Part shown: positions 47,199 through 48,418 of the stretch, in pieces
How the letters are laid out: every line of letters starts with the position of its first letter
Numbering within the stretch: position 1 is the first letter of the stretch
DNA from: Pelagophyceae sp. CCMP2097
Lineage: Eukaryota > Sar > Pelagophyceae
Length of the DNA: 56,696 bases
NCBI GenBank assembly: GCA_026770575.1
Contig: MU657209.1
Coordinates: 202,383-259,078 of the forward strand
Reading direction: 5' to 3'
Notes under the pieces: model-generated
Databases searched by the model: none
Told to the model about the DNA's origin: nothing
What the model saw: only the letters and a program-made list of their open reading frames with translations
Position numbers and translations under genes: made by a program

Positions 47199-48418
47199 CT
47201 AGCAGCGCTGCTTGTCGAGGCCGTCCTCGATGTAGTAGTAGATGTTGCCCGCGGCGGTCCACTCGCGGAAGCAGACGCAGCCGGCGTCGTTGAAGTCCTC
47301 GTTGATGAACATCTCCACCTCGGCGCACTTCTTCATCAGGAAGACGGCAATGGCCGAAGCGCGGCCCATAAACTCCTTGATCTCCTCCTGGGCGACGCCC
47401 TTGTCCTTCTTGTGCTTGCGCACGCCGACGAAGTACGACTTGAGCCAGTTCTTCAGCGTCGCCTTGTCCATCTCGAAGGGCTGCAGCTTGAACGTGAACT
47501 GGATGGCGTCCACCGTCTCCACCGAGTCGTCCTGGCCCTCGTCCGCCTCCTCGGCGGAAGCGTTGCCGCCAATGTTAATCTCCTCGCCGCCGGCAGTCAT
47601 GTTGCGCGATTGCACCTTGACCAGCCCCGGCCTAAAGACGGCCTCAACCAGGCAACACACGGGCGCTTAGAGGCCGCCCGCGACGCCGGCCACACGGCGC
47701 GGCCCCGCCCGCGGAGACTCACACATCCGCGACGGCCTCAATCGGGAACGCGTCGGAGCACATCTCCTTGCCGGAGATGGGGCAGACCCAGATCTCGAGG
47801 CTACGCGGCAAAGGCGTCGGCGAGGGGGCGCGCGACACGGCGGGGAAGGCAAACCGCAGACACACCCGCCGCGGAGGCGGAGCACGAGGTGCAGCGTCGA
47901 CTCCTTCTGGATGTTGTAGTCCGAGAGCGTGCGGCCATCCTCGAGCTGCTTGCCCGCGAAGATGAGGCGCTGCTGGTCAGGCGGGATGCCCTCCTTGTCC
48001 TGGATCTTCTGCTTGACGTTGTCGATCGTGTCCGACGGCTCGACGTCGAGCGTGATCGTCTTGCCCGTGAGCGTCTTGACGAAGATCTACGCGCGTGCAG
48101 GCGTGGGACGCTGGTCCTCCCTCGGACGGGGGGCGCCCGGGATTCATTTTTAACGCCGCCCATGCACGGTGCCTCGAAGTACCCGCGCTTCCCGAATTAT
48201 ATCACGAGGGCCGTCGAAGGCGGTCCCCGCAGGACCGCCGCGCCGCCCTTGTCGTAACTCTGGCACGCCAGCATCTCCACGGCCCCTCCGAATCTCAACT
48301 TTGCCGCCTCTCTCGCCGCCGTGGCGTACGGTGCGGCGGCGCGGCCCCCAGAGACCAAAGTCCCGCCCACGAATTTCGACCCAGGGGCGTCGCGCGACCG
48401 TGCGTGACGCACCTGCAT
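47199..48418 (-). CDS. Ubiquitin-TCTP fusion protein
   Basis: Exons 48418-48413 (ATGCAG), 48086-47866, 47800-47723 and 47631-47199 give 245 residues. Residues 1-76 are ubiquitin ending HLVLRLRGG, differing from the common sequence only at about positions 16 (Asp), 24 (Asp) and 28 (Gln). A 65-nt GTGTGT..TAG intron inside the last glycine codon joins it in frame to a complete TCTP (169 residues): [20 protein letters not shown], signature [36 protein letters not shown] and terminal GLDKQRC. TCTP has no own initiator Met; its first residue is Leu. Deubiquitinases normally cut after Gly76, which would release ubiquitin and a Leu-started TCTP. TCTP is a translation-linked cytosolic growth regulator. 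The first intron (326 nt) is long for this region. Confidence 0.9.

Follow-up and report, generated by a model that had tools for sequence, protein, structure and literature searches.

Ubiquitin is made at the N-terminus of other proteins in several described systems. The closest are Ub-eS31 (RPS27A) and Ub-eL40 (UBA52), in which a single N-terminal ubiquitin ending in RLRGG is in frame with an abundant translation-linked protein and is known to be cleaved off after Gly76. Excerpts of a review call the reason for making ubiquitin as fusions a mystery, report the proposal that the ubiquitin leaders of yeast eL40 and eS31 favour efficient production or folding, and count 147 Pfam architectures that contain ubiquitin, given in its Table S2 (PMC8122580). 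In FUBI-eS30 (FAU) the leader is a ubiquitin-like protein, and excerpts of a study of its processing state that cutting needs the diglycine and is performed by USP36 (PMC8354635). In-frame N-terminal ubiquitin also occurs on non-ribosomal algal partners in Bigelowiella and Guillardia, where the partners include actin, capping protein, NiSOD, P1, P2, HMG box, zinc finger and others, while TCTP is not listed in Tables 1 and 2 of that paper and the terms 'TCTP' and 'translationally controlled' are absent from its main text (PMC6332867).

We analysed a window of 56,696 nucleotides, the whole stretch of DNA taken from contig MU657209.1 of the stramenopile alga Pelagophyceae sp. CCMP2097, which carries a ubiquitin joined in frame to TCTP (Ub-TCTP). 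It shares with Ub-eS31 and Ub-eL40 the layout described above, and it would presumably be cleaved after Gly76 as well; in contrast to them, its partner is non-ribosomal and normally a free protein with its own Met1, and the fusion was found only in one algal clade and in environmental sequences. Like FUBI-eS30, the corresponding genes of a related lineage have decayed, ubiquitin-like leaders with a C-terminal Gly-Gly before the partner; the partner is TCTP instead of eS30, however, the CCMP2097 leader is still a perfect ubiquitin, and the decay in the TCTP fusions looks separate from that of FUBI. The earlier note on this DNA knew of no TCTP fusion, and in agreement with this, no report of one was found in the 5.39 million open papers searched (among the matches listed for the broadest queries). 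The term 'translationally controlled' is absent from the main text of two reviews (PMC8122580, PMC11354881), although Table S2 of the former may hold such a protein. The fusion is thus new as an observation and not as a sequence record, since a protein with both domains is already public, and ubiquitin fusions to other, non-TCTP partners are already known.

Gene model and junction of the ubiquitin-TCTP locus

The Ub-TCTP gene lies on the minus strand at 48418-47199 and has four exons, which encode 245 codons plus a stop in one frame; each of the three introns (326, 65 and 91 nt) begins with GT and ends with AG. Exon 1 (48413..48418) consists of ATG CAG, the ubiquitin Met1-Gln2, and is followed by the phase 0 intron 1 (48087..48412, GTGCGT...GCGTAG). 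Exon 2 (47866..48086) starts at ubiquitin Ile3 and stops two bases into the Gly76 codon, which is split (GG/C) by the phase 2 intron 2 (47801..47865, GTGTGT...GCGTAG). Exon 3 (47723..47800) supplies the last base of Gly76 and then TCTP residues, ending two bases into the next codon, and after intron 3 (47632..47722, GTGAGT...CTTTAG) the remainder of TCTP and the stop TAG are found in exon 4 (47199..47631). The spliced 245-aa product was letter for letter identical to an NCBI record of Pelagophyceae sp. CCMP2097 (P0001) named 'ubiquitin-related domain-containing protein'. On this one protein, Pfam detected both ubiquitin (111.2 bits, cut-off 25.4) and TCTP (PF00838, 96.8 bits, cut-off 24.3, positions 3-163 of 164).

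The TCTP part has no initiator Met of its own, and Leu stands at its position 1. No in-frame ATG for TCTP alone was present in the 59 codons from LEIW upstream to the first stop, nor any ATG in the 65-nt intron. A six-frame search of the genome, carried out exon by exon with two candidates scored, found one TCTP locus. The in-frame fusion at 47199..48418, the GT-AG intron inside the last ubiquitin Gly codon and the lack of a start codon for TCTP had all been described in the earlier note, and each is borne out by the exact exon model and its identity to P0001. Downstream of the gene, a cofilin/ADF exon was seen on the plus strand of the window (46043-46498; PF00241, 47.3 bits), tail to tail with Ub-TCTP.

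At the junction, RLRGG/LEIW, Gly75-Gly76 directly abuts TCTP; no spacer separates Gly76 from TCTP residue 1, and the P1' residue is Leu, not proline. A profile search of solved structures matched 11 distinct TCTP sequences, and position 3 of the TCTP part aligned with position 3 of both human TCTP (6ize) and the 6j2y NoTCTP chain; Leu therefore occupies the place of Met1 in free TCTP. The protein thus agrees with the TCTP family in its Pfam match and in its register from residue 3, while it differs in having Leu for Met1 behind ubiquitin and in the long branch of the fused clade. About 50 of the 169 positions in nine aligned sequences are invariant, Leu1 among them, so its constancy by itself proves little. 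Structure prediction for the fusion protein (mean pLDDT 86.5) places Leu77 immediately before the first strand of TCTP, which begins at residue 78. Judged by its residues, with GG intact and Leu at P1', this junction would belong to the cleavable type.

The ubiquitin leader and other ubiquitin genes of the genome

The leader of Ub-TCTP is a complete 76-residue ubiquitin, 100% identical over residues 1-76 to the ubiquitin of Ub-eS31 (C50). We compared its codons with those of six further ubiquitin units from the same genome and found 13-18 synonymous differences in 68-74 shared codons, with no amino-acid differences seen, in a comparison that was built on exact matches of at least 10 residues, so that differing residues would drop out, that recovered 68-76 of 76 positions per unit, and in which the C22 'unit' combines both readable ends of a longer gene. 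The result points to a working ubiquitin under purifying selection rather than a recent copy.

A ubiquitin search of the genome gave 37 matches. By hand reading and Pfam, the following genes were identified, beginning with Ub-eS31 on C50. At C176:58500-63500 (L012), a true ubiquitin and not FUBI is joined to eS30 (PF04758, 104 bits). At C230:70907-74122 (L003, 1501 to about 2445), ubiquitin is followed by a short acidic linker and SKP1, the core subunit of SCF ubiquitin ligases. No other SKP1 locus turned up in the genome, a search of 1.5 kb upstream did not recover ubiquitin codons 1-4, and the open literature searched gave no match for a Ub-SKP1 fusion. At C470:22500-28500 (L011), two ubiquitin units precede a tail of ~120 residues with no Pfam match. 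On C33, which is absent from the 37 ubiquitin matches, eL40 (L020, around 32881-33027) has a Met start of its own (MVYDPSLAAL). No ubiquitin words occurred in the 1.5 kb before this Met, and the sole match to the words sought was LRGG ~530 nt downstream. From these readings, eL40 appears to be unfused in CCMP2097, unlike the usual Ub-eL40.

The earlier note had suggested that Ub-TCTP could be a third ubiquitin-supplying fusion. This suggestion is partly supported. Supply is likely with an intact leader, but Ub-eS31, Ub-eS30, Ub-SKP1 and the two-ubiquitin gene are also present, and eL40 is apparently unfused.

Two further observations concern the ubiquitin genes. A splice acceptor, CACAG, at the codon of intron 1 (after codon 2) was also seen in the first ubiquitin units of C470, C176 and C22 (L011, L012, L013), and Ub-eS31 (L001) is without an intron there; this shared position hints at the kind of ubiquitin gene that founded Ub-TCTP. 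Separately, a family of ORFs on C15, C129, C83 and C7 (L005, L006, L007, L014, L018; the longest about 390-550 aa) combines ubiquitin-like units of altered sequence with a related N-terminal part and a tail starting MYH[EK]SSAQD, and it looks like a lineage-specific expansion.

Relatives of the fusion and their leaders

Three protein searches yielded 119 distinct proteins. A script sorted them into 29 with a leader joined at GG/Leu, 50 with a Met1 start and 40 starting elsewhere, the pattern for the 29 itself demanding Leu after GG and the Met1 class being likewise defined by pattern. In a recount independent of this pattern, R.RGG was present in 28 of the 119 proteins; 27 of these were leader junctions, and the next residue was Leu in all 27, as the earlier note had read it at the cut site of this gene. 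The 28th, P0117, has R.RGG as a chance match C-terminal to its TCTP part. The remaining two of the 29, P0028 (GLLGG) and P0090 (ALVGG), are also followed by Leu, and Gly-Gly was kept before Leu at every junction seen. The earlier note had called for a search of stramenopile proteomes for ubiquitin-then-TCTP proteins; the database searches returned 28 others with the same join as P0001. They include Pelagomonas calceolata (P0019) and two transcriptome records in which both parts are on one transcript, namely Aureoumbra lagunensis (P0011, MMETSP0890) and an MMETSP record of 321 aa with the order Ub-Ub-TCTP (P0013). Chrysophaeum taylorii P0008 belongs to the clade by tree position; it is annotated from an internal Met with no leader seen, and it also lacks the first TCTP strand, as expected from a missed leader.

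In a quick tree of all 119 proteins, the smallest clade with all 29 fused proteins (support 83) held 51 rows: these 29 and 22 whose N-terminus is incomplete or odd, with not one of the 50 Met1 proteins among them. The 22 rows without an N-terminus could conceal unfused TCTPs, and one of them, P0002 (165 aa), starts only at TCTP residue 5. When near-full-length rows were selected and residue 1 was excluded, a branch with 100/100 support set the fused rows apart in each of two trees (48 of the 119 rows, and 34 rows), with two N-terminally incomplete rows on the fused side in the 48-row tree. The simplest reading of these trees is one origin of the fusion. No reversal to an unfused TCTP was seen in the trees of the collected proteins. 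Met1 TCTPs outside the fused clade were those of two diatoms, Tetraparma, the brown alga Ascophyllum and Nannochloropsis. In the 48-row tree the fused clade stands on a long stem of 0.98 changes per column; judged by this branch length, TCTP underwent much change at about the time it was fused. DNA copies elsewhere were looked for by scanning viral contigs and genome contigs, which gave no relative.

The leaders were compared in six of the seven fused proteins with decayed leaders (P0090 was cut short and omitted) and in 19 of the 22 others (P0003, P0016 and P0020 were incomplete and omitted). Among the 19, 11 leaders, that of CCMP2097 included, were identical to ubiquitin over 76 residues, with P0004 and P0019 giving no usable ungapped comparison. 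Intact-looking leaders are not all perfect, as the 72-aa leader of P0004 has 6 differences in 72 residues; that of P0005 deviates solely by an odd start. P0019, whose leader at one point seemed unlike ubiquitin, was rejected as such a case, because a one-residue insertion had upset the ungapped comparison.

The six decayed leaders (P0028, P0029, P0030, P0032, P0033 and P0119) were identical to ubiquitin at 28-40 of 76 residues. In the body, each still agreed with ubiquitin at 23-34 of 70 residues (180/420 in sum), and in the tail 31/36 residues agreed, with Gly75-Gly76 present in all six. Ile44 and His68 were changed in every one of them, and Leu8 fell in a gap in five and was substituted in the other one. 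The seventh decayed leader, P0090, reads LVGG/LTV. Neither P0028 nor P0090 retains Arg72 or Arg74, and ordinary ubiquitin proteases may be unable to cut these two. The leader of P0030 was predicted to have a ubiquitin fold, and only this part of the model was used (mean pLDDT 47.6 overall and poor outside the leader, with ten-residue block means of 59-82 over residues 31-100). P0031, a near-perfect ubiquitin with 2 differences, nests among the decayed leaders, and the AU test for one decayed clade gave p = 0.074; leader decay may have happened more than once.

Alternative explanations and the proposed role of the leader

Our main reading, to which we give a probability of roughly 80%, is that this is a natural ubiquitin-TCTP precursor gene whose product would be cleaved, and that the cleavable leader is probably kept even where it is no longer a source of ubiquitin. 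One mRNA would yield the precursor, which deubiquitinating enzymes would cut after Gly76 during or soon after translation, releasing free ubiquitin and a Leu-starting TCTP, the presumed sole TCTP of the cell. Selection may then keep the cleavable N-terminal leader of ubiquitin fold, which supplies the start codon of TCTP and may aid its synthesis or folding. In the related lineage, the leader would have ceased to be ubiquitin while the GG/Leu cut site was kept, along with, in the one modelled leader, a predicted ubiquitin fold.

A misjoining of two adjacent genes by annotation or assembly, with the TCTP start exon missed, was considered because the genomic join spans an intron and because P0008 is annotated without a leader. 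We regard this as extremely improbable: 28 other database proteins share the join, which makes a chance or assembly join very unlikely, the frames run unbroken across it in all of them, including the two transcriptome records, and the missing first strand of P0008 is what a missed leader would leave. The artefact was rejected on these grounds. Another reading is that the fusion stays uncut and ubiquitin remains on TCTP as a permanent domain or a ubiquitin-fusion-degradation signal. The predicted fold of TCTP begins immediately after the join and could slow proteases, but the linear di-ubiquitin join, likewise with a strand directly after it, is cut in nature. Gly-Gly stands at every junction seen, and the decayed leaders keep their tail far better than their body, which also argues against an uncut protein, so that we hold this reading to be quite unlikely even though Giardia ubiquitin-eS31 stays uncut according to excerpts of a review (PMC8122580).

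The earlier note had further proposed that a Leu N-degron ties the TCTP level to ubiquitin processing, that is, cleavage exposes Leu1, and the amount of TCTP is set by this processing together with N-recognin activity. Leu is a type-2 destabilising N-terminal residue and was constant at the 27 R.RGG leader junctions, and one ORF of the genome combines a UBR box with a ClpS domain, the parts expected for reading an N-terminal Leu. On the other hand, Leu1 stands one residue before the first predicted strand, so the end of the folded TCTP is unlikely to be free, and Leu is the nearest hydrophobic stand-in for Met1, so that packing or common descent would explain its constancy equally well. The claim is therefore weak; because Leu1 abuts the first strand in the model, we rejected the N-degron as the main reason for the fusion and keep it as a minor and unlikely rival. 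More serious, though still doubtful in our view, is the possibility that the fusion is retained just because it provides additional ubiquitin, co-regulated with a translation-linked gene of high expression; this has been proposed for Ub-eS31 and Ub-eL40, and the leader would then have no role for TCTP. Most fusions do carry an intact ubiquitin (11 of the 19 leaders being identical throughout), the synonymous-only differences within the CCMP2097 genome are consistent with this, and one transcriptome record even has two ubiquitins. Yet six leaders are no longer ubiquitin and can hardly be kept for supply, which also limits the earlier suggestion of a ubiquitin-supplying fusion; they nevertheless keep GG/Leu and the TCTP join, which argues that ubiquitin supply is not the sole reason for the fusion.

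Within the reading of a cleaved precursor with a kept leader, we tentatively propose, at somewhat less than even odds, that a once-only fusion became the sole source of TCTP for a whole algal lineage, and that in a related lineage its ubiquitin decayed into a dedicated leader that aids TCTP production and is then cut off, which would make it a replicate of FUBI. If this is true, making TCTP would require processing of the ubiquitin type, and what preserves fused ubiquitins would be a cis role and not supply alone. The presence of a perfect ubiquitin in one lineage and of a decayed leader with a kept cut site in another separates supply from cis-role explanations. For the organisms themselves, Ub-TCTP may be a simple shared character of pelagophytes and their kin, and it may be a case of a normally free, abundant protein that depends on proteolytic release.
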